A stretch of DNA of 33,470 bases from Ichthyobacteriaceae bacterium (lineage in GTDB: Bacteria > Bacteroidota > Bacteroidia > Flavobacteriales > JADGDT01). Positions 20,741 through 32,124 of this stretch are shown here, piece by piece. The stretch's first letter is position 1. Each line of letters opens with the position of its first letter. The notes below the pieces were generated by a model. That model was not told the DNA's origin. It ran no database searches and worked only from the letters and a program-made list of their open reading frames with translations. The stretch is taken from the NCBI GenBank assembly GCA_023145615.1, contig JAGLDK010000042.1, positions 1 to 33,470 of the forward strand, written 5' to 3'. A program made the translations under genes and the position numbers.

Positions 20741-21868
20741 CTATCTTAATAAAATACTTTTAACAATTTCAGCATTAAATTTACGAGGATTATTTTTCAA
20801 TCTATCAGCATTTACATTTGCTAAAATAGCATCCATTTCAACACTTTCAATTCCTATATTTTCAAAATTAATATCAACACCTATTAAATCTGTTAAATTT
20901 TCGAGATACAATTTTGCTTCTTTTACAGTTTCAACACCTATAATATCAAACAGTATTTTAATATTATTTTTAACAAATTCCACTCCCCTACTATCGTTAC
21001 ATTCCTCTGCATTCAGCAAATAATTATACTCAACAAAAGCTGGTAACGTATAAAAAACAGCGTGTCCATGCGGTATATTATATCTCGTTGAAATTGAATA
21101 CGACAATGCGTGAGGTGCTGTTGTTTTAGTAATATTAATTGCCTTGCCCGATAAATACGAAGCATACGCAATTTTAGAATTCAATTTTTTATCATCCGAA
21201 AAAACAGAATCTCTTAAGTTTTCTATTAAAACAGAAACAGCTTCTTTTGCATATTCTAAAGATTCTTTAGTAGAATTTACCGACCAAAAAGATTCAATAC
21301 CCTGAGCCAATGCATCTAAACCAGTACATGCTTTTAAATATTGAGTTTGAGATAAAATTAAATCAACATTTAAAAAAGCTACCGAAGGCAATAAGTTATA
21401 ATCGGCTAACGAATACTTTTTATTTTTATAATATACAACTGCAAAATGTGTAGCCTCACTTCCGGTACCACTTGTAGTTGGAATTGCAATTATTGGTATG
21501 GTATTATTTTTTTTAGCAATATTTCCTTTTAATATATCAATATAATCAGTCGATTTTTCGGTTGTAAAAGCACTTATTAACTTTGCCATATCAATAACAC
21601 TTCCACCACCAATTGCAACAATTAAATCGCAATTACTTTCCTGAAAAAGTTCAACTCCTTTTAACGAATCTTCATATTTTGGATTACTATCGAAATCAGA
21701 AAACCTAACAAATTCAACATCCGAATAAAGTTTTGAAATAAAACTTTCGGCATCCGAAGTACTAAACGATTTTTTACCTGTTACCAGAAAAACCTTTTTA
21801 GTTGACAACTTTTTTATTTGAAATAGTAAATCCTTAGCAGAGCTACTTTCTATTAAATTCTGATTCAT
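20741..21868 (-). CDS. phosphonoacetaldehyde reductase (iron-containing alcohol dehydrogenase family)
   Basis: The 375-residue protein is a group-III (Fe-ADH, PF00465) dehydrogenase, expected to reduce phosphonoacetaldehyde to 2-hydroxyethylphosphonate with NAD(P)H. Visible: the nucleotide-binding VAIGGGSVIDMAK (about residues 85-97), the hallmark IPTTSGTGSEAT (129-140), TGLDALAQGIESFWSVNS (182-199) with metal ligand D185, and TAPHALSYSISTRYNIPHGHA with H253 and H267. The fourth usual ligand His is Gln (Q189). The substrate is inferred from the two preceding genes and overall resemblance to the phosphonate-linked subgroup. I chose the ATG at 21868 (MNQNLIESSS), 20 bases after the decarboxylase stop, over a TTG at 21904 that would overlap it. 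Last gene of the operon. Confidence 0.88.
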   Translation of the reverse strand: MNQNLIESSSAKDLLFQIKKLSTKKVFLVTGKKSFSTSDAESFISKLYSDVEFVRFSDFDSNPKYEDSLKGVELFQESNCDLIVAIGGGSVIDMAKLISAFTTEKSTDYIDILKGNIAKKNNTIPIIAIPTTSGTGSEATHFAVVYYKNKKYSLADYNLLPSVAFLNVDLILSQTQYLKACTGLDALAQGIESFWSVNSTKESLEYAKEAVSVLIENLRDSVFSDDKKLNSKIAYASYLSGKAINITKTTAPHALSYSISTRYNIPHGHAVFYTLPAFVEYNYLLNAEECNDSRGVEFVKNNIKILFDIIGVETVKEAKLYLENLTDLIGVDINFENIGIESVEMDAILANVNADRLKNNPRKFNAEIVKSILLR

Positions 21869-21887: not shown

Positions 21888-23009
21888 TTATTTCTGCTGA
21901 ACAAAATTCTGAAAAGACTCTTTATTTTCTTTTGTTGAAGTTGTTGGTCGTCCTAAATTAGCTCTCGATCCTTGATTAACCATAATTTCTAAAAATGCAA
22001 TTCCTTTATGAAAAATTAAATCTTGCAACGCAATTTCTAATTCTTTTTTAGTATTTACACTAACAGTATACGAGTAATTACTCGCCTTAGCAACACCACA
22101 AAAATTTAAAGTTGATGCAACAGTTGCCTGCCCTCCAACCGAATCGTGAACCTGATTATTTAGCAAAATATGTTTAAAGTTTTTTACCATAGGTAAACTA
22201 CCACTAACAGCTAAACTACCCATGTGCATAATTACCGAACCATCGCCATCTAAACAAAAAACATTTTTATTTTCGGCACCCAAAGCAACTCCTAAAGCAA
22301 TTTGAGACGTATGCCCCATTCCTCCAACAGTTAAAAAATCTTTTTCGTGCCCTTGCCCCATTGCTTCTCTCAACTCAAAAACTTCTCTCGATGTTTTTCC
22401 GGTAGTAGAAACAACAATTCCATCGGCAATATTATTCAACACAACTTCAATTGCATCTTCTCTACTTAATTCAAAATCATCGGCATTATTCTTTACCGAT
22501 TTATAACTTTCGAAAGCTCCTTTACGCACCAAAATTGCAACAGGTTTACCTTGCTCAACAGCATTTAACTTGGCTTTTTCAATAACCTTTTTATAATTCG
22601 ATGTGTTATCTAATATTTGATACGAAACATCAACAGCATCTAAAAGTTGCTTAGTAACTTTACCTTGTTTTACATGCTGAGGTTCATCTTTTGTTTCTCC
22701 ACGCCATCCAATCATTAAAACCATTGGAATACCATAAACCTCCTCATCGGCAATAGATAAAATTGGATTTATGGCATTACCCAATCCCGAATTTTGCATA
22801 TAAACCATAGGCACATTTCCGGTAGCCAAATAATTACCAACAGCCAAGCCTATTGCTGAGCCTTCGTTTGCCGATATAATATGCTTATCCTTACTAGTAT
22901 TATCATCAATATACGAGCAAATATCTTTTAATAACGAATCGGGAACTCCTGCAAAAAATTCAATTTTATTATTCAATAATTCCTGAAAAAAAAGTTTAGT
23001 ACTAATCAT
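21888..23009 (-). CDS. aepY: phosphonopyruvate decarboxylase
   Basis: The 373-residue ThDP- and Mg-dependent enzyme decarboxylates phosphonopyruvate to phosphonoacetaldehyde, the irreversible step that pulls the unfavourable PEP-mutase reaction forward. The N-terminal pyrimidine-binding domain has FFAGVPDSLLKDICSY and the cofactor-activating Glu in SANEGSAIGLAVG (E49). The C-terminal pyrophosphate-binding domain has GGMGHTSQIALGVALG (229-244), the metal motif GDGSVIMHMGS (255-265) and LLNNQVHDSVGGQ (282-294), which is characteristic of phosphonopyruvate decarboxylases as opposed to acetolactate synthase relatives. Length is normal for the short Ppd form. It starts 1 base after the PEP-mutase stop codon, hence tight coupling. 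Confidence 0.96.
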   Translation of the reverse strand: MISTKLFFQELLNNKIEFFAGVPDSLLKDICSYIDDNTSKDKHIISANEGSAIGLAVGNYLATGNVPMVYMQNSGLGNAINPILSIADEEVYGIPMVLMIGWRGETKDEPQHVKQGKVTKQLLDAVDVSYQILDNTSNYKKVIEKAKLNAVEQGKPVAILVRKGAFESYKSVKNNADDFELSREDAIEVVLNNIADGIVVSTTGKTSREVFELREAMGQGHEKDFLTVGGMGHTSQIALGVALGAENKNVFCLDGDGSVIMHMGSLAVSGSLPMVKNFKHILLNNQVHDSVGGQATVASTLNFCGVAKASNYSYTVSVNTKKELEIALQDLIFHKGIAFLEIMVNQGSRANLGRPTTSTKENKESFQNFVQQK

Positions 23010-23010
23010 A

Positions 23011-24315
23011 TTATTTTGTTCCAGGTATTAAATTTAATATTTCTTTAATCGACATCATTTGGTCGTCTGCTTCCTTAGATCTAGAATTTTCTAAAATAGA
23101 AGTTGCAGTACTTTGCATTGACGGGTATGAACTACGCAACATATGATTTGCATAAATAACCACATTTGCACCAGCTTCTGCCAACTCTTCCTCAGTAATA
23201 TGATTGTAGCTCGATGGTACTACAACCAACGGTTTACGATTTTCTATTTTATTATACAATGCACAAAACTCAAGTATTTCTTGTTCCGATTTTTCTCTAC
23301 TATGAATCATAATTCCATCGGCACCAGCAATAATAAACGCTTTAGCACGAGCAATTGCATCGTCCATTCCTTGCTTTAAAATCAAGCTTTCAATACGGGC
23401 AATAACCATAAAATCTTCGGTTACACGAGCAGCACGAGCCATTTTAATTTTATTACTGAAATTTTCAATACTATCTTGTTGCTGTTTTACTTCGGTACCA
23501 AACAACGAGTTTTTCTTCAGTCCAATTTTGTCTTCAATAATAATTGCCGACACTCCTAAACGCTCAAGCGTACGAACTGTAAAAACTAAATGCTCAGGTT
23601 TTCCACCAGTATCTCCATCATAAATAATAGGTTTGGTAGTACACTCTAAAATATCGTTTAAACTGTGTAAACGAGATGTTACATCAACAGCTTCAATATC
23701 GGGCTTACCTCGTAATGTTGAATCGGTTAAACTCGACGACCACATTCCATCAAACTCCTTTATTTTACCATCTTTATTTACAGTAGTAGTTTCGCAAATA
23801 AGTCCTGATAAACCACTGTGAGATTCTAAAATTCTAACAATTTCTTTCGACTCAATAAGTCTTCTTAATCTCGATCTACGTAAATCGGGAGTAGTACCAA
23901 TTTCAGATATAATTTTCTTTAATTTACTCGACGATATTCCTTCTGTATATTTTACATCAACAACTTTTCCTCCCCATTCGGCAAGTATTTTTATAGCTTT
24001 TGCTCTGGTTTTTTGTTGCACACCTTCTTTCCAGTCATCTCCATGAACAACAAAATCGGGTTTTATTAAACGTAAATTATCTTCGTAATCTAAAGTTTCT
24101 TGAGGTATAACTTTCGAAATTCCTTTTATATTTGATATAACCTCTTTTCTACTTTCGAAATCCATTACAGGTAAACGTTTGTAGCTAGATATTGCCTTAT
24201 CAGTTAATAACCCAACAGTTATCTCTCCTAATTTACGAGCTTCTTTAATAATATTTAAATGTCCGGGGTGTACCAAATCGGCACTCATTCCTATATATAC
24301 AATATTCTCTTTCAT
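23011..24315 (-). CDS. aepX: bifunctional cytidylyltransferase-phosphoenolpyruvate mutase
   Basis: The 434-residue protein fuses two domains. Residues 1-140 are a nucleotidyltransferase of the cytidylyltransferase superfamily, with HPGH at 16-19 in the [15 protein letters not shown] block, HGDDW at 91-95, and [10 protein letters not shown] at 124-133 (the ISSTxxR-like motif). Residues 145-434 are PEP mutase, which rearranges PEP to phosphonopyruvate and creates the C-P bond. The mutase-specific signature [10 protein letters not shown] is intact at 261-270, with IYDGDTGG at 231-238 and GADGIMIHS at 331-339, separating it from isocitrate-lyase relatives. In related fusions the N-terminal domain activates the final phosphonate (for example 2-aminoethylphosphonate) as the CMP derivative; here the end product appears to be HEP. 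It is the first gene of the operon, after a 253-base gap. Confidence 0.96.
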
Positions 24316-24385
24316 AACAATTTTATTTATTTCGATGTAAAATCAACACTAAAATTAAAACACAATATTACACCATTTAAAAAGC

Positions 24386-24393
24386 CAAAAATA
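24386..24393 (-). promoter_or_regulatory. putative -7 element (TATTTTTG) of the phosphonate operon
   Basis: On the minus strand TATTTTTG fits TAnnTTTG and lies about 70 bases before the PEP-mutase ATG. No clear -33 TTG is seen at the expected distance, so support is moderate. If real, the three phosphonate genes have their own promoter apart from the upstream glycan genes. Confidence 0.4.
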
Positions 24394-24487
24394 TCATAGA
24401 ATAAACAAATACATTGTAAAAAAACGTTTTTTTTTATTCTATTTATTTAATCCAATATCATCACGTAATTTACACTTCAATTATTTA

Positions 24488-24540
24488 AAATTTAGGAGTA
24501 TTACACACCGTTAAATTATCAATTTAACACTCTAAAATTT
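24488..24540 (-). terminator. imperfect long hairpin downstream of the flippase gene
   Basis: GTTAAATT at 24510-24517 pairs with AATTTAAC at 24521-24528 around ATC, and flanking AAATTTAGGAGT / ACTCTAAAATTT extend it imperfectly to 24488-24540. It lies 30-80 bases after the flippase stop on the minus strand. It may be a weak terminator or an RNA 3'-end structure; the missing long T-run keeps confidence low. Confidence 0.35.
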
Positions 24541-24568
24541 AACTACAAATTACAACACAATATAAACT

Positions 24569-26032
24569 CTATTTTATAATTTTAAATTTCATCAACACAT
24601 TAAGTAATACTTCTCTTATTTGTTCCGATGGTTTTATTAGGCATATCATTGCCAAAAACAAAACACTTAAAACCAACGAATATATTATAATAGTTACAAT
24701 AGGATTTAGTATTAATGGCAAAGAATAAAACAATGCGGTTAATAATAAAATAAATGCAACTACATAAAACGATTTTATTGAAAACGGAAAATATCCAAAC
24801 TTATTTTTAACAAAAAACAACTTCATTAAATTATACAAAACCATACCGAAAGCAGTTGCTAAACCTGCCCCGAAAATTCCGAATAAAGGAATAAATATAA
24901 TATTTAAAACTATTGTTAATACAATTAAAATTACGCCAAAAACCAAGTCGAATCTGTAAAATTTAGAGTTTGTAATAATAGTTCCGTTTATACCCGTTGC
25001 CATATCAAACCACTTACTAAATGCAATTATAATAGCCACATATTCTCCTCCAGCAAACTCATTTGGCAAAAGCATATACATAAACTTTACGTTTACAGCT
25101 ATCAGCATAAATACAAAACCCGATATAACAAGTAGGTTAATTGAACTTGCTTTATATAATTTAAGTACTTCTTTAGTATTGTTTTCGGCTAAAGCTTTCG
25201 ATACAAATGGCATTAGAATTTGTTGCATTGATCGGCCGGGTACAGAAACTACTATTCCTATAAAACTTCCTACCGAATAATATGCTACATTACTTAAATT
25301 AACAAACTGAGAAATCATTAATTTATCAACCTCTAAAACCATAAAAGATATTGATGCCGAAAAAATAACAAATAACGAAAAATACAAAGGCTCTTTATAT
25401 TTGTAAATAGGTTTAACATTTAAGTTGTAATTTTTTAAAGCATACACAGCCATTACAACCATACGCACACCATAACCTACTGCCAACCATTTTATAAAAC
25501 CATCGCTATCAATAATATTAAAATAAAGCAATATTAATAATACGCTTACAAATATTCTGATTGATACTTCTTTTAAAACATTTCCGAATACACTTTTTAA
25601 TTGCACTTTTGCATAAGCATAAAATACCTCGAAATACCCCACAAATAAAGCATATAAAAGCACATAACCTGTGTACGATGTAACAAGTTTACTTTTACTA
25701 CTCAATAAAGTATTAATTTCGGTTTGAAAAATAAAAAACAATATTGCAATAGGAATTATTACAATTAATGGCAATAAAAATGTAAAAGTTAAAAAACCAT
25801 CTTTTTCCTCTTTTGTTTTATAATGAGAGTAAAAACGAATTATGGTATTACTCATACCCAACGATAATAACGGAAATAAAATCATGGAGGCAGATAGCAA
25901 AACGGCTACCAATCCATAATAATTATCATCCATAATATACGGATACAAAAACAGCGTATTTATTGCACCAACACCAAAGCCTAAATAAGTAAATATTACA
26001 TTTTTTATAGACTGATTAACAACTACTCCCAT
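24569..26032 (-). CDS. oligosaccharide flippase (Wzx-like, MOP superfamily)
   Basis: The 487-residue inner-membrane protein has about 14 hydrophobic helices throughout and no soluble domain. The opening NQSIKNVIFTYLGFGVGAINTLFLYPYIM and the early MGLGMSN-like segment (LLSLGMSNTIIRFYSHY) are typical for polysaccharide-biosynthesis/Wzx flippases of the MATE/MOP superfamily. Such proteins turn undecaprenyl-linked oligosaccharides to the periplasmic face. It begins 4 bases after the preceding transferase gene and ends the glycan sub-operon. No Wzy polymerase or chain-length regulator is visible in the window, so the exported unit may be a short oligosaccharide or glycolipid, or polymerase genes may lie elsewhere. 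Confidence 0.9.
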   Translation of the reverse strand: MGVVVNQSIKNVIFTYLGFGVGAINTLFLYPYIMDDNYYGLVAVLLSASMILFPLLSLGMSNTIIRFYSHYKTKEEKDGFLTFTFLLPLIVIIPIAILFFIFQTEINTLLSSKSKLVTSYTGYVLLYALFVGYFEVFYAYAKVQLKSVFGNVLKEVSIRIFVSVLLILLYFNIIDSDGFIKWLAVGYGVRMVVMAVYALKNYNLNVKPIYKYKEPLYFSLFVIFSASISFMVLEVDKLMISQFVNLSNVAYYSVGSFIGIVVSVPGRSMQQILMPFVSKALAENNTKEVLKLYKASSINLLVISGFVFMLIAVNVKFMYMLLPNEFAGGEYVAIIIAFSKWFDMATGINGTIITNSKFYRFDLVFGVILIVLTIVLNIIFIPLFGIFGAGLATAFGMVLYNLMKLFFVKNKFGYFPFSIKSFYVVAFILLLTALFYSLPLILNPIVTIIIYSLVLSVLFLAMICLIKPSEQIREVLLNVLMKFKIIK

Positions 26033-26036
26033 ACTT

Positions 26037-27203
26037 TTATAAACTATCTATAAATTTAATTACGTTATTAGTTGCACTACCTATTTTATACTGATGAAAT
26101 TGCTCAATAAACTTATTAAGTTTTATGTTTTCGGAATTATTACTACCCAAACTTTTAGTTACATTGCTTGTAAAATCATTAAACGTTTTTACAATATTAC
26201 CCGGATACATTTCTAACAAATCAACATTCATACCTCTGTGTTTTGTGTATTCCTCAATATCGTACGGAATAAAAATCATTGGTTTACGCAATACCGCATA
26301 ATCAATAATAATACCCGAATAATCGGTAATTAGCAAATCAACTAACGGCAATATTTCATTAACATCCTCTAATTTTTTCTGATCTAAATAAATTATATTT
26401 TCATTAAATTCTATTTTACCCTCAATTTTATGCCTGTCGTTTTTATGTAATCTAACAAGTAAAATAATATTTTCTTTCGTTAAAAATTCATTCAGTTTTT
26501 TAAATGAATAATCTTTAAAAGGAAAAAGTATTAAATCAGTATCGTCTCGGTAAGTTGGAGCGTATAAAAGTATTTTACTCCCTTTTTTAATATCCAAATT
26601 ATCTAAAACACTTTCGTCTTTATTAAGTAACAAATCGTATCGTGGATAACCTGTTTTAATTATTTGTTGAGGTAACAATCCAAACGAAGTACTTAAAATA
26701 TTAGTTTCAAAATCAGAACTCGAAATCATGTAATTAAGATTTGAGTTTAGTTTTAAAAAGCTTGAAATTTCATTGGGATTTAAATTTTCCATACTTGCAC
26801 CAATAGCCTTAAATGGAAACCCGTGCCACACATTAATTGTTATTTTATTATTACTATAAGGATTAAACGGTGTGGTATCGTACAAGCCATGAGATATAAC
26901 AATTACTTTACTTTGCACATATATTTTTAAGGCTTTAAACGAATACGAAAAAACAATTTTATTACCATATTTACTTTGCAATAATTTAAGTAAATCAAAA
27001 TCTCGTGTAATAAAATATACATCTTTTTGTTGGCTATACATTACATCAAACAACTGTTTAGAGTTGCTGTTAAAGTATCGTCCTTCAGAACAAGATATTA
27101 AAACCCTATTTGATTTAGGGCTAATAAACATCAACAAAAATCTTGATATTAACCCCAATAAAACACCATATATTTTATAAAAATAATAAACTATTTTCCC
27201 CAT
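26037..27203 (-). CDS. CDP-glycerol glycerophosphotransferase-like (TagB/TagF family) transferase
   Basis: The 388-residue protein belongs to the Glyphos_transf family (PF04464). Family blocks: VISHGLYDTTPFNPY, INVWHGFPFKAIG (about residues 123-135), TGYPRYDLLL, LYAPTYRDD, LLVRLHKND, and the signature LLITDYSGIIIDYAVLRKPMIFI followed by YTKHRGMNVDL. An N-terminal hydrophobic stretch (VYYFYKIYGVLLGLISRFLLMFI) suggests membrane association. Characterised members move glycerol- or ribitol-phosphate from CDP-polyols to lipid-linked sugars. The ATG at 27203 directly follows the upstream stop, so I prefer it to a TTG at 27218. No CDP-glycerol synthesis gene is in the window, but a CTP-dependent phosphonate operon is, so CMP-hydroxyethylphosphonate is a plausible alternative donor. 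Confidence 0.88.
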   Translation of the reverse strand: MGKIVYYFYKIYGVLLGLISRFLLMFISPKSNRVLISCSEGRYFNSNSKQLFDVMYSQQKDVYFITRDFDLLKLLQSKYGNKIVFSYSFKALKIYVQSKVIVISHGLYDTTPFNPYSNNKITINVWHGFPFKAIGASMENLNPNEISSFLKLNSNLNYMISSSDFETNILSTSFGLLPQQIIKTGYPRYDLLLNKDESVLDNLDIKKGSKILLYAPTYRDDTDLILFPFKDYSFKKLNEFLTKENIILLVRLHKNDRHKIEGKIEFNENIIYLDQKKLEDVNEILPLVDLLITDYSGIIIDYAVLRKPMIFIPYDIEEYTKHRGMNVDLLEMYPGNIVKTFNDFTSNVTKSLGSNNSENIKLNKFIEQFHQYKIGSATNNVIKFIDSL

Positions 27204-27204
27204 A

Positions 27205-28257
27205 CTAAACACCATCAATAGCCTTAAATAATTCTTTTTCTCTGTTATTAAAACTATAGTTTTTAATAACTCTTAATCTTGCTTTTTCTGCGTATTCAGT
27301 TTTATTTTTAAGGCCAATTACTTCTTTAACCAAAACATCTAAATCGTTAACATTTCTGTTTTTTAAAACAAAACCAGTATCTCCAATAATTTCAGGAATA
27401 ATATTAGACGATGACCCAATTGGAATACATCCACACAACATAGCCTCGGTAAGTGCAAGTCCAAAACCTTCGAAAATAGAAAGCTGAAAATGATAAGTGC
27501 TTTTATTAAAATACTCCCTCATTTTTTCTTTCGATAGTATTCCTAAAAAAATAACATTAACAGGAATGTTACGTATATTTTTAGGTGCAATTGTACCAGC
27601 AATATAAAATGTATAATCGGCATATTTTTCGGCTAACTCTATAATTAAATCTCCACCTTTTAGTATAAATTGTTTATCCGAAAATGCTGAAATAAACGAT
27701 TTCTCATCTTTAATAAAATTTGGCAAAGGTTTCCAAAAAGCACTATCAACGCCGTTATATATAACTTTAAAATCGGTTTTATTATTCTTGAAAAAAGTTT
27801 TATATCCTTGATTTTCGGAATCGGTATTCTGCAAAAAAGTATTTTTAACACTAACTAACGATGAGCTTACAGGTAAAAGTTTTGTTGCATATTTATACGA
27901 AACTCCACAAAAAAACTGAATCATTTTTTTGCGTAAACTTCCATATCCAATTGATGGAATACTTGCACAATCGGTACCGTGCAAAACAATAAAAACTGGT
28001 ACGCCAAATAATTTACCAATAACCGAAGGTATTAACGACCAATATCCTCCAAATTCAACAATAACTTTATCGGCTTTAAAAATATGAGTTATAAAAAACA
28101 CAAATTGAAACAACAAATTAAAAGGCAACATAAATTTGTTTGCCCATTTATAAGTATTAATTATTACGTTGTATTTTTTCGATAAAATATCTATATCCGA
28201 TTTAATAAACGAGCTAATAAATGGCGCAACTAATATTATATTACTTCTATCCTTCAT
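27205..28257 (-). CDS. glycosyltransferase family 4
   Basis: The 350-residue cytosolic enzyme has the two Rossmann domains of GT-B retaining glycosyltransferases. In the N-terminal domain FGVPVFIVLHGTDCASIPS and KLLPVSSSLV mark the acceptor side; the C-terminal domain has KVIYNGVDSAFWKPL and the donor-binding motif FEGFGLALTEAMLCGCIPIG (the family E-x7-E) followed by IPEIIGDTGFVL. Donor sugar and linkage cannot be read from sequence. The start is 6 bases after the first glycosyltransferase gene and the stop 1 base before the TagF-like gene, so it is translationally linked in the glycan operon. Confidence 0.92.
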   Translation of the reverse strand: MKDRSNIILVAPFISSFIKSDIDILSKKYNVIINTYKWANKFMLPFNLLFQFVFFITHIFKADKVIVEFGGYWSLIPSVIGKLFGVPVFIVLHGTDCASIPSIGYGSLRKKMIQFFCGVSYKYATKLLPVSSSLVSVKNTFLQNTDSENQGYKTFFKNNKTDFKVIYNGVDSAFWKPLPNFIKDEKSFISAFSDKQFILKGGDLIIELAEKYADYTFYIAGTIAPKNIRNIPVNVIFLGILSKEKMREYFNKSTYHFQLSIFEGFGLALTEAMLCGCIPIGSSSNIIPEIIGDTGFVLKNRNVNDLDVLVKEVIGLKNKTEYAEKARLRVIKNYSFNNREKELFKAIDGV

Positions 28258-28263
28258 ATTAAT

Positions 28264-29571
28264 TTAAACCATATTTAAAACCTCGGCCAACTTACCCGTA
28301 ACACTTTTACGAGAATACTGATTTATATTTTCAGACTTTACAAACAACCCTCCATTACTGTACAAATTAAAATAATTTAATACCGATTTTTTCATTTCCT
28401 CTTTGTCCGAATAATCAATATTTACTCCACCATTTGTGTTTTTTAAAACTTCTGATAAATCGCTTCCGTTTGGAGAAATAGCTAATATTGGACGGTTGGC
28501 GTTTAAATATTCAAACAATTTACCCGGCAACATGCCCATTGCATTTTTAGGATTATTTGTTAATAACAACAATAATTGAGAACTTTTCTGAAACCTTACA
28601 GCTTCTTTATGATTCAAATAACTATTGTAAACAACATATTTTTTCAATCCATTTTTTTCTAAATATTCAAAAACTTCATCGCTTACACCTCCGGCAAGTT
28701 TTATTTGTAATTTATTGGCAAATACTTTATTAATATCAACAAGCTCTTTAAGTGCATTCCAAAAAACAATTGGATTACGTTCGGCGTTCATCGATCCGAT
28801 ATGAGAAATAGTAAACTTTTCGTCTAACAAAACCTGCTCATCCTCGTTAAGTTCGTTATCGAAACCGTTAGTTAAAACATGAATATTATTTTTATTACTG
28901 ATTTTAAAAAAATCATTTTTCCATGCCTCACTTACTGTTAAAACCTTATCTGCAGTGTATAAAACTTCTTTTTCTAACTGATGATGTTTTTTATCGGCCC
29001 ATTTACTTAGTTTCAAACTAGAGTAATAATCAATATTTGTCCAAGGATCTCTGAAATCGGCAACCCATTTTATATTAAGTTTATTTTTAAGTTGCAAACC
29101 AATCATATGCATACTATGTGGCGGACCCGACGAAACAACAACATCAATATTATTTTCTGATAAATATTTTTGTAAAAACTTAACCGATGGAGAAATCCAA
29201 AATTTACGAGCATCAGGAATAAATAAGTTTCCACGCACCCAAACCGAAAGCTTTTGTATAATACTTTGGTTTTCTTCCGACTCAATAAAACCTCCTTTAG
29301 TTTTATTAATGCTTTTTTTACCTCCAATAATACTTGCCAAATTATATGGCTCTAAAATTGGTTGCTTTATAACCTCAACTCCTTCTGGAATTTCAGAAAT
29401 TAAAGTTTCGTCAATCATTGGATAACTTGGATTTGAAGCTGTGTAAACCACAGGCTCCCATCCAAATTCTCTTAAATATTTTACAAACTTAAGCCAACGC
29501 TGTACCCCCGGACCTCCGGCAGGTGGCCAATAATATGTAATTATAAGTACCTTTTTTCTTGAATTTTGCAT
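28264..29571 (-). CDS. glycosyltransferase family 4
   Basis: The 435-residue protein is a GT-B glycosyltransferase (GT4-like, with a Glyco_trans_4_4-type N-terminus): ITYYWPPAGGPGVQRWLKFVKYL at the start, VVVSSGPPHSMHMIGLQLK, KWVADFRDPWTNIDYY (about 166-180), then ADKVLTVSEAWKND. The C-terminal donor domain has FTISHIGSMNAERNP and MGMLPGKLFEYLNANRPILAI, which replaces the usual E-x7-E segment. This type is common in Bacteroidota surface-polysaccharide clusters; the sugar is unknown. It is the first gene of the tight GT-GT-TagF-Wzx run and lies 51 bases downstream of the YfhO-type gene. Confidence 0.92.
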   Translation of the reverse strand: MQNSRKKVLIITYYWPPAGGPGVQRWLKFVKYLREFGWEPVVYTASNPSYPMIDETLISEIPEGVEVIKQPILEPYNLASIIGGKKSINKTKGGFIESEENQSIIQKLSVWVRGNLFIPDARKFWISPSVKFLQKYLSENNIDVVVSSGPPHSMHMIGLQLKNKLNIKWVADFRDPWTNIDYYSSLKLSKWADKKHHQLEKEVLYTADKVLTVSEAWKNDFFKISNKNNIHVLTNGFDNELNEDEQVLLDEKFTISHIGSMNAERNPIVFWNALKELVDINKVFANKLQIKLAGGVSDEVFEYLEKNGLKKYVVYNSYLNHKEAVRFQKSSQLLLLLTNNPKNAMGMLPGKLFEYLNANRPILAISPNGSDLSEVLKNTNGGVNIDYSDKEEMKKSVLNYFNLYSNGGLFVKSENINQYSRKSVTGKLAEVLNMV

Positions 29572-29622: not shown

Positions 29623-32034
29623 TTAGTCCTCTTTTCTTTTAACTCCAAAAAATATACCTACCACTATCAAACCAAATAAAATAATATTACTTGCTAATGT
29701 TATTTTATTTCCTGTTGAAATAACTTGAGGTTCAAATTTAAACACAACCTCGTGTTTTCCTTTAGGAATCCACAAAGCACGCAACACATAATTTGCTCTC
29801 GAAATTTCAGTTTTGTTTCCATCTATATAAGCATTCCAACCACCCGAATAATATATTTCAGAAAAAACAGCTAATCCATCGTTGTTGTTTTCAGTATTAT
29901 ATTTTAGCTCGTTTGCCTGATAATGAGTTAATTTAATTTTTGCTGAATTATCTAAAACCAAATTTTTATTCAACAAATTATCGGCAAATCGTTTATCAAT
30001 AATAGCATCGGCACGAGTGTTTAATTTCGATAATGCAGTCATTTCTGCATTTGCATTTTCAACCAATTTATAGCTATCAACAAACCAAGCATTTCCGTTA
30101 GCATTAGGGTTTTCAACAACTGTTGATTTACCCTCTTTTGTAGGCGCAATAATATACTTAGTGTTAAGCATATTTATTACCTGCTGATTTTGTTTTGATA
30201 ATTGAAAATCCCAAAGATCTTGATAACGCTGTAATTTTGCACCATGATATCCTCCTATTGATTGGTGGTAATATGATGTGGTACTATTATTCATAGTACT
30301 TACAGTTGCATTATAAACTCTGTAAATTGATGTGTCTTTTAATATTTGAGCATCGGCACTACTTAATGGAAAAGCATTATCTACTTTACGAGCATTCAAA
30401 AAATCATCGTTATTTAAATAGCGTTTATTTACACCTCCTAAATCAAATATTACCAAAATAGCTAATATTGCTAACGCTAAGTTTTCTTTCAACTTATTCT
30501 TCATAGCAAAATACAAAGCAACTGCCGAAACCGAAATAAGTAACAAACTTCTTAAGCTATCGCTTTTTAACATATCAAGTCTATCGGCACGAATTGCATC
30601 CATTGGGAAACCCATTTGTGCATATCTCGAATCGGTTAATCCTATAAAATCGAACATTGACGAACCTAACAAGAAAAACAATAATGATAAACCACCTGTG
30701 GCAATAAAACTTATCTTTAATGCTTTAAATTTATCCGTATTATCTTTTTTACCAAAAAACCATTCTTTTAAAGCTAACACAGCTAAAAATGGCATTGTAA
30801 ATTCTGCAACAATTTGTATTGACGATACTGCACGGAATTTATTATACATCGGAAAATAATCAATCATAATATCGGTTAACCACATCATGTTTTTACCCCA
30901 TGCTAAAGTTAAACTCATAATTGTTCCGGTTAAAAGCCACCATTTTAAAGTACCATCAACCAAAATTATACCCAATACAAACAAGAAAATTATAATTGCT
31001 CCAATATATGCCGGACCCGATGTAAATGGCTGACCTCCCCAATAAGTTGGCACTTGCTTTAATATTTGATTTAACTGTCCGTTTGGAACTCTGCCTTTAA
31101 GTGCATTTGCAAGGTTAGAATCGGTAGAAAGTTCTTCTGACGAAGCTCCTCCCATAAAATTTGGAATCAGCAAATTAAACGTTTCAGAAATTCCGTAACT
31201 CCACTGAGTAATATAATCTTTATCTAATCCGCTTGATTTTTTAGCTGTTTCTTTTCCTAAAGTTAATTCCGACGGACCACGTGTTGTATGTTTTGTGTAT
31301 TCAATTGTTGCCATTAATTTGGTAGCATTTACTCCAAACGCCAAAACCACAGCAGCCAACAATACTACAACACTTTTAAAGAAACTATTAAAAGTGCTAT
31401 TTTTATAAGCTTCGTAAATATAAAAACCACCCAAAATTAAAATCAACAACCCAAAATAATAAGTCATTTGATAGTGGTTAGCACTAATTTCAAGTGCCAT
31501 AAAAATTGCGGTAATTATACCTCCCAGTAAATATTTCTTTCTAAAAGCTAATATTATTCCGGCAGTAAGCATTGGTAAATATGCAATTGCATGAGCTTTT
31601 GAGTTATGCCCAGCTTCAACAATAATAAACATGTAAGTTGATAATCCAAAACCTAAAGCTCCTATTAACGAAATACGCCAATCGTTACCCAATAATATCA
31701 TCATAAAATAAAAACTTATAAACGATAATAATAAATAATCGGCCGGACGAGGTATTGGACGTAGTAAAGAATCTAATGATTTTACTAAATCGTATTTGTA
31801 TTTCGATGCTATTTGATAAGTTGGCATACCACCAAACATTGAGTTTGTCCAATATGGTTCTTGTTTATACTCATCTCTGAACTCTACAATTTCCTGAGCC
31901 ATACCACGAGAGTTTATCCCGTCTGATTGATATATTTTTTTTCCGCTAAGCAACGGACTAAAATATATAACTGATATTAATAAAAAAAGCCCAACAACTA
32001 TAAAGTGAGGCACAAATGGTTTAAGTTTATTCAT
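29623..32034 (-). CDS. YfhO-family multispanning membrane protein
   Basis: The 803-residue protein begins MNKLKPFVPHFIVVGLFLLISVIYF and carries about a dozen membrane helices up to residue ~560, with one near the C-terminus (SNIILFGLIVVGIFFGV). A soluble domain of ~210 residues lies between. Family hallmarks: SDGINSRGMAQEIVEFR and YWTNSMFGGMPTYQI in the first periplasmic loop. YfhO proteins have a GT-C-like architecture, and Gram-positive members are needed to add sugars to teichoic acids, so a polyprenyl-sugar-dependent glycosyltransferase is a reasonable but unproven role, supported by the glycosyltransferase neighbours. An upstream in-frame ATG at 32106 lies inside a terminator hairpin, so the ATG at 32034 is preferred. 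Confidence 0.88.
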   Translation of the reverse strand: MNKLKPFVPHFIVVGLFLLISVIYFSPLLSGKKIYQSDGINSRGMAQEIVEFRDEYKQEPYWTNSMFGGMPTYQIASKYKYDLVKSLDSLLRPIPRPADYLLLSFISFYFMMILLGNDWRISLIGALGFGLSTYMFIIVEAGHNSKAHAIAYLPMLTAGIILAFRKKYLLGGIITAIFMALEISANHYQMTYYFGLLILILGGFYIYEAYKNSTFNSFFKSVVVLLAAVVLAFGVNATKLMATIEYTKHTTRGPSELTLGKETAKKSSGLDKDYITQWSYGISETFNLLIPNFMGGASSEELSTDSNLANALKGRVPNGQLNQILKQVPTYWGGQPFTSGPAYIGAIIIFLFVLGIILVDGTLKWWLLTGTIMSLTLAWGKNMMWLTDIMIDYFPMYNKFRAVSSIQIVAEFTMPFLAVLALKEWFFGKKDNTDKFKALKISFIATGGLSLLFFLLGSSMFDFIGLTDSRYAQMGFPMDAIRADRLDMLKSDSLRSLLLISVSAVALYFAMKNKLKENLALAILAILVIFDLGGVNKRYLNNDDFLNARKVDNAFPLSSADAQILKDTSIYRVYNATVSTMNNSTTSYYHQSIGGYHGAKLQRYQDLWDFQLSKQNQQVINMLNTKYIIAPTKEGKSTVVENPNANGNAWFVDSYKLVENANAEMTALSKLNTRADAIIDKRFADNLLNKNLVLDNSAKIKLTHYQANELKYNTENNNDGLAVFSEIYYSGGWNAYIDGNKTEISRANYVLRALWIPKGKHEVVFKFEPQVISTGNKITLASNIILFGLIVVGIFFGVKRKED

Positions 32035-32088
32035 ATTGGGGATACTTAATGTAGGGTATTTTATTTGATATATTGTTTTTATAAGCAC

Positions 32089-32124
32089 TAAAACCTCTGA
32101 AAGCATACACTAACAGAGGTTTTA
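32089..32124 (-). terminator. hairpin terminator between DUF4834 and YfhO-type genes
   Basis: TAAAACCTCTG at 32089-32099 is the reverse complement of CAGAGGTTTTA at 32114-32124 around a 14-base loop. It begins 5 bases beyond the DUF4834 stop codon on the minus strand and contains the upstream ATG at 32106. The T-run is short, so termination may be partial. Confidence 0.65.

Follow-up and report, generated by a model that had tools for sequence, protein, structure and literature searches.

A TagF-like transferase encoded next to a predicted CMP-hydroxyethylphosphonate cassette in an Ichthyobacteriaceae bacterium: a candidate for phosphonate transfer to a glycan

The stretch of DNA analysed here (the window) comprises 33,470 nucleotides of contig JAGLDK010000042.1 from an Ichthyobacteriaceae bacterium (assembly GCA_023145615.1, 68% complete; genome G000 below, where labels in G stand for genomes and labels in L for loci). 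Its minus strand carries a glycan operon with a TagF-like transferase gene, the subject of this report, upstream of a set of phosphonate genes. The conserved head of the locus is a gene for a YfhO-family membrane protein (29623..32106; PF09586, 46 bits), with a family 4 glycosyltransferase, GT4a, conserved beside it (28264..29571; PF13439, 40.5 bits). Then come a second glycosyltransferase, GT4b (27205..28257; PF00534, 58 bits; like GT4a above its Pfam cut-off), the TagF-like transferase of 388 amino acids (26037..27203; PF04464, 242 bits for a cut-off of 22.1) and a Wzx-type flippase (24569..26032). The last four genes are separated by 6, 1 and 4 bases, provided that the TagF-like gene starts at the ATG at 27203, which is likely: the TTG start listed at 27218 would overlap GT4b. 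The flippase taken alone scores 18.8 bits with PF01943 (cut-off 28.2), but homologues in L129, L027 and L030 pass, with 37-46 bits. No polymerase was recognised within the operon. A gap of 253 bases (24316..24568), in which no terminator-like site was found and one promoter-like site (24420-24393) scores not above chance, leads to the phosphonate genes: aepX (23011..24315), aepY (21888..23009) and a gene for an iron-containing alcohol dehydrogenase, ADH (20741..21868), which likely starts at the ATG at 21868 rather than at the TTG listed at 21904. Coordinates and Pfam and NCBIfam matches thus confirm the arrangement described in a first-pass annotation of the window: two GT4 enzymes, a PF04464 protein and a flippase, coupled with gaps of 1-6 bases and upstream of the phosphonate operon on the same strand.

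The cassette aepX-aepY-ADH would provide an activated phosphonate. AepX is a fusion of a cytidylyltransferase domain, of the type acting on 2-hydroxyethylphosphonate (HEP), with a phosphoenolpyruvate (PEP) mutase (TIGR02320, 410 bits, over cut-off; CTP_transf_like and PEP_mutase in Pfam), and the mutase part has the EDKX5NS motif at residues 261-270. Its N-terminal domain aligns without gaps with structure 5x3d, 82 of 138 residues (59%) being identical (195 bits), while structures of glycerol-3-phosphate cytidylyltransferases give at most 40 bits. We take 5x3d to be the cytidylyltransferase domain of Fom1; the PDB search labels it merely as a phosphoenolpyruvate phosphomutase chain. AepY is a phosphonopyruvate decarboxylase (TIGR03297, 462 bits, over cut-off). 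The ADH (PF00465, 141 bits) is proposed to be the phosphonoacetaldehyde reductase from its cassette position and family only, since its nearest NCBIfam models are all under cut-off (TIGR03405, 163 of 423.7 bits); most of the 80 loci surveyed below have such a gene in this cassette. AepX would make phosphonopyruvate, AepY would convert this to phosphonoacetaldehyde, the ADH would reduce the latter to HEP, and the cytidylyltransferase domain of AepX would convert HEP to CMP-HEP, the reaction that the Fom1 domain carries out with CTP and HEP (PMC6697681). CMP-HEP is therefore a well-supported product of the cassette, yet one that we infer, because the evidence consists of a Fom1-type cytidylyltransferase, the EDKX5NS motif and a reductase assigned by position and family.

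The AlphaFold2 model of the TagF-like protein (mean pLDDT 84) finds its best structural match in TagF (3l7i; E 1e-22, TM 0.75), followed by TarL and capsule polymerases. The catalytic residues H444 and H584 of TagF align with H127 and H253 of the window enzyme, and both histidines are invariant in 19 PF04464 proteins from phosphonate loci. The NCBIfam equivalogs for TarF, TarL and TarB are not reached (132, 116 and 68 bits for cut-offs of 550, 1000 and 500), and the model does not discriminate between CMP-HEP and CDP-glycerol as donor.

Further evidence on the donor comes from the neighbourhoods of HEP cassettes. A scan of the collection with the window TagF protein as lone query gave no relatives; an alignment scan with AepX collected at least 80 loci with close relatives, and the best 80 were surveyed. 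In 58 of them the gene directly after aepX-aepY-ADH, on the same strand and within 400 bases (the slot gene), was scanned with Pfam: it belonged to the LicD family in 25 cases, to PF04464 in 12, to glycosyltransferase family 2 in four and to the CDP-alcohol phosphatidyltransferases in one. As controls served 107 genes of these loci, four or more places away; their list of families, which goes down to a count of 2, contains neither LicD nor PF04464 (at most one match each). If one control match is assumed for each family, Fisher's test gives p 1.5e-5 for PF04464 and p 1.4e-12 for LicD, values that overstate the strength because the loci share ancestry. Slot counts from our own iterated profiles (13 PF04464, 26 LicD) were discarded: the profiles had drifted, Pfam finding neither family in G652 (L078, L121), and for this reason the Pfam counts are used. 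By record name, the PF04464 slot genes come from Bacteroidales, Cyclobacteriaceae, Ignavibacteria, Cloacimonadota and Aliidiomarina. PF04464 also stands at the third place in L063 (Syntrophomonadaceae) and just before aepX in Ancylomarina, Marinifilum and G620. In L090, a parallel to the window, a flippase of the window's family immediately precedes aepX-aepY-ADH, and LicD is the transferase that follows the cassette.

Fifteen genomes have a cassette-adjacent PF04464 gene, G652 being counted by our own profile only, and just one of the 15 has LicD. TagD is matched strongly, if under its cut-off (128-138 bits), in two, Ancylomarina and Marinifilum. At most one IspD-like gene is present in 13 of 14 (G652 was not scanned); a second, weak match occurs in G653 only. 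G646 and G649 carry cassette TagFs of the classic type and show no TagD or IspD-like match besides the AepX domain. For most cassette-linked PF04464 proteins, therefore, CMP-HEP is the only CDP-alcohol-like donor recognised. Among the LicD-slot genomes searched, 5 of 23 have PF04464 (G652 was counted apart, its slot gene not being a Pfam LicD). Taken together, the neighbourhoods give strong support to the view that activated phosphonates can be transferred by PF04464 enzymes.

A further gene type was met in these loci. In L049 (5427-8474) the PF04464 gene is followed by one for a protein of about 1000 residues with YidC-type insertase and sulfatase-fold domains, both confirmed by Pfam; genes of similar length follow PF04464 in L050, L055 and L064. 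One slot gene, by its length that of L069 (13705-17106, directly after ADH), also has both domains. This fusion may be a further transferase, since the sulfatase fold includes EptA-type phosphoethanolamine transferases.

Two other genomes of the same genus, G001 and G002, allow a closer comparison. In G001 (97% complete) YfhO-GT4a-GT4b-TagF runs into a contig end, and Wzx-AepX-AepY-ADH is found on another contig, with 77 bases between Wzx and aepX (253 in the window). Identities with the window proteins are 66% for YfhO, 46% for GT4a, 55% for GT4b, 63% for Wzx, 88% for AepX, 67% for AepY and 61% for ADH; for TagF the figure is 63% over the N-terminal 113 residues. G002 (99% complete) keeps YfhO (67%) and GT4a, followed by a UDP-GlcNAc 2-epimerase-like gene; neither a pepM match (pepM being the PEP mutase gene) nor a TagF orthologue was found in this genome, and its Wzx homologue (49%) sits in a different locus. 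TagF and the cassette are thus present together or absent together in all three genomes of the genus, a small sample, and YfhO and GT4a are not specific to phosphonates, since G002 retains both. A YfhO homologue within about 10 kb of aepX, as in the window, was also seen in L084, L088, L090, L099, L105, L111, L118 and L120, mostly from rumen Bacteroidales; YfhO may go with the glycan to which the phosphonate is added.

Several observations weigh against the view that the window enzyme itself transfers HEP. In 296 genomes of the order, TagF is matched at 1e-20 in nine and pepM in two, G000 and G001. The nearest TagF homologues in the order belong to genomes without a pepM match and lie there in a YfhO-GT4 locus like that of the window; close homologues mostly in genomes lacking PEP mutase had been named in the first-pass annotation as evidence against HEP transfer. 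In G016 (L029) the operon YfhO-GT4a-tagD-TagF-Wzx has nearly the same order and the same gene families as the window, but tagD lies within it and the genome has no pepM match. G036 has YfhO-GT4a-TagF-Wzx without tagD, and G155 and G075 have variants of the locus. Because several pepM-less homologues occupy this kind of locus, the YfhO-GT4-TagF-Wzx type is older or wider than the phosphonate cassette. In a tree, grouping the window TagF with the classic-type TagFs of L058 and L063, the most similar of those linked to a cassette, is rejected (p-AU 0.0009), whereas a group with the TagFs of YfhO loci is accepted (p-AU 0.30). A single TagF subgroup travelling with aepX and including the window gene is thereby rejected; the co-occurrence with aepX that the first-pass annotation proposed to look for is seen for the family, PF04464 being the second commonest slot gene, and not for the subgroup of the window gene. 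On one side of the tree, 13 cassette-linked PF04464 proteins resemble a HEP-specific clade; we do not claim one, because pepM-less relatives are unsampled on that side. The window gene does not directly follow the ADH; it is found upstream of the cassette, beyond the flippase and a gap that possibly holds a promoter. The linkage of TagF to pepM in G001 is put together from two contigs, as TagF is cut by the contig end. Finally, the survey loci are not independent of each other, and many of them come from metagenome bins that may be misnamed.

The supply of other donors is a further point against HEP transfer. On contig C87 of G000, a large glycan locus that includes another PF04464 gene encodes a GpsA-TagD fusion (TIGR01518, 183.5 bits for a cut-off of 165.4) and has a second TagD-like gene (80 bits). 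G000 thus probably makes CDP-glycerol. That no CDP-glycerol synthase is visible, as stated in the first-pass annotation, is correct for the window, where no tagD was found and the sole PF01467 match is the AepX domain, but does not hold genome-wide, and a tagD homologue elsewhere in the genome had itself been named there as an argument against HEP. The absence of tagD from the window was accordingly dropped as evidence for CMP-HEP. It would prove nothing by itself, as G009, G155, G036 and G075 carry PF04464 genes although neither tagD nor pepM is matched in them.

Some of these donor genes deserve mention in their own right. The GpsA-TagD proteins (L008:4724-6079, L013:10491-11864) are fusions of a glycerol-3-phosphate dehydrogenase with a glycerol-3-phosphate cytidylyltransferase, and such a single protein would lead from dihydroxyacetone phosphate to CDP-glycerol. 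On C87 (L009:1476-4572) a TagD-like gene, a class V aminotransferase gene resembling AEP (2-aminoethylphosphonate) transaminases, though under cut-off, and a PF04464 gene are grouped, a trio that looks like a route to a CDP-amino-alcohol. In three relatives within the order, whose genomes have neither pepM nor tagD matches, a methyltransferase-like gene adjoins the TagF-like gene (L026:1079-1720, L027:8194-8826, L030:10326-10961; Pfam was applied to L026 alone), a hint that the donor there is a different phospho-alcohol, one that is methylated.

CDP-glycerol is thus the main rival donor. The window enzyme would then take it from GpsA-TagD and add glycerol phosphate to the glycan of the YfhO locus, the HEP cassette being a neighbour with another target. 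The fusion passes the TIGR01518 cut-off in G001 as well as in G000, the operon of G016 is syntenic, and the tree (p-AU 0.30) is compatible with this explanation. We nevertheless consider it rather unlikely. In G001, 8 bases separate GpsA-TagD from another PF04464 gene, the glycan locus on C87 of G000 has its own, and in G001 an IspD-like/SDR (short-chain dehydrogenase/reductase) pair, probably a CDP-ribitol synthase, stands beside LicD. Judging by these neighbours, a separate transferase seems to serve each of the other donors, and the HEP cassette of G000, where no LicD match was found at 68% completeness, would be left without one. Could CMP-HEP then be used by an unlinked transferase (LicD, the third, weak PF04464 on contig C94 of G000, an EptA-like enzyme) or enter a small-molecule pathway? 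The incompleteness of G000, the LicD elsewhere in G001, the C94 gene and the YidC-sulfatase fusions that follow the cassette in some genomes leave room for this. It appears improbable to us: the LicD of G001 adjoins the IspD-like/SDR pair, apparently its own donor genes, and the annotated neighbours of aepX include no recognised tailoring gene of the fosfomycin type. Least probable of all is an enzyme using CMP-HEP together with CDP-glycerol, or a third CDP-alcohol, to give a mixed glycan; the PF04464 genes of G009, G155, G036 and G075, lacking tagD and pepM matches in their genomes, imply that the family must have further donors, but the material examined offered no instance of an enzyme with two donors.

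The reading that we prefer, with a probability of roughly 57%, is that an older locus for transfer from a CDP-alcohol gained the HEP cassette and now transfers HEP. Its basis is the gene content, family membership, predicted fold and kept catalytic residues of the window, the linkage in a second species (over two contigs) and a pairing that recurs in further genomes. From these we infer that HEP is the product, that the enzyme transfers it, what the acceptor is and that the donor has been exchanged. The two GT4 enzymes would build an oligosaccharide or glycolipid acceptor, a hydroxyl of which would attack the phosphonyl phosphorus of CMP-HEP in the TagF-like enzyme, releasing CMP and leaving HEP on the glycan; the Wzx-type protein would flip the decorated product. 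The YfhO-GT4-TagF-Wzx locus would originally have served a CDP-alcohol, the donor supply changing once the cassette became linked. HEP transfer, as first suggested for this locus, thus stands well for PF04464 as a family (12 of 58 slots) and less well for the window gene, given the tagD in its genome, the pepM-less homologues and the tree. At this point we may go further and speculate, with even odds in our estimation, that PF04464 is a widespread second class of phosphonate transferases, replacing LicD beside CMP-HEP cassettes in several phyla and recruited repeatedly from teichoic-type enzymes, the window being a case of donor switch from phosphate ester to phosphonate.

The step that places activated phosphonates on cell surfaces has been called enigmatic, with LicD-like proteins named as candidates (PMC6697681). 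A recurrent PF04464 partner provides a second candidate family, structurally known and open to a simple assay, the release of CMP from CMP-HEP; if the proposal is true, the annotation CDP-glycerol glycerophosphotransferase may conceal enzymes that transfer phosphonates. We found no earlier statement of this pairing in the open literature; subscription papers were outside that search.

Several known systems resemble the window in part. With the teichoic glycerol- and ribitol-phosphate transferases TagF, TarF and TarL (3l7i, 8va1), the window enzyme shares Pfam family, fold and both TagF catalytic histidines; it differs in being far under the equivalog cut-offs, in having no tagD or tarI in the window and in its adjoining Wzx-type flippase and phosphonate genes. 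The type A flagellar glycan of Clostridioides difficile contains phospho-N-methylthreonine and in part 2-AEP, and its operon has a gene annotated as glycerophosphotransferase (PMC8861647, PMC10889297); the likeness is one of gene annotation and glycan composition, C. difficile is without pepM, and these papers do not assign the transferase role of that gene. With Fom1 of the fosfomycin pathway, AepX has in common the order of the fusion, cytidylyltransferase then PEP mutase, and a 59% identical cytidylyltransferase domain, but the fosfomycin pathway passes through CMP-HEP on the way to a free antibiotic, whereas here the CMP-HEP genes adjoin glycan genes. A further parallel is provided by the phosphonyl tailoring (Pnt) pathways (Rice et al. 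2019, PMC6697681), which combine CMP-AEP with LicD-like phosphotransferases. Shared are the PEP mutase, the decarboxylase, the activation with a cytidylyl group and a presumed CMP-releasing transfer to a surface glycan; in the window, however, the cytidylyltransferase is of the Fom1 type (PF01467), the reductase suggests HEP and not AEP, and the candidate transferase belongs to PF04464 instead of LicD.

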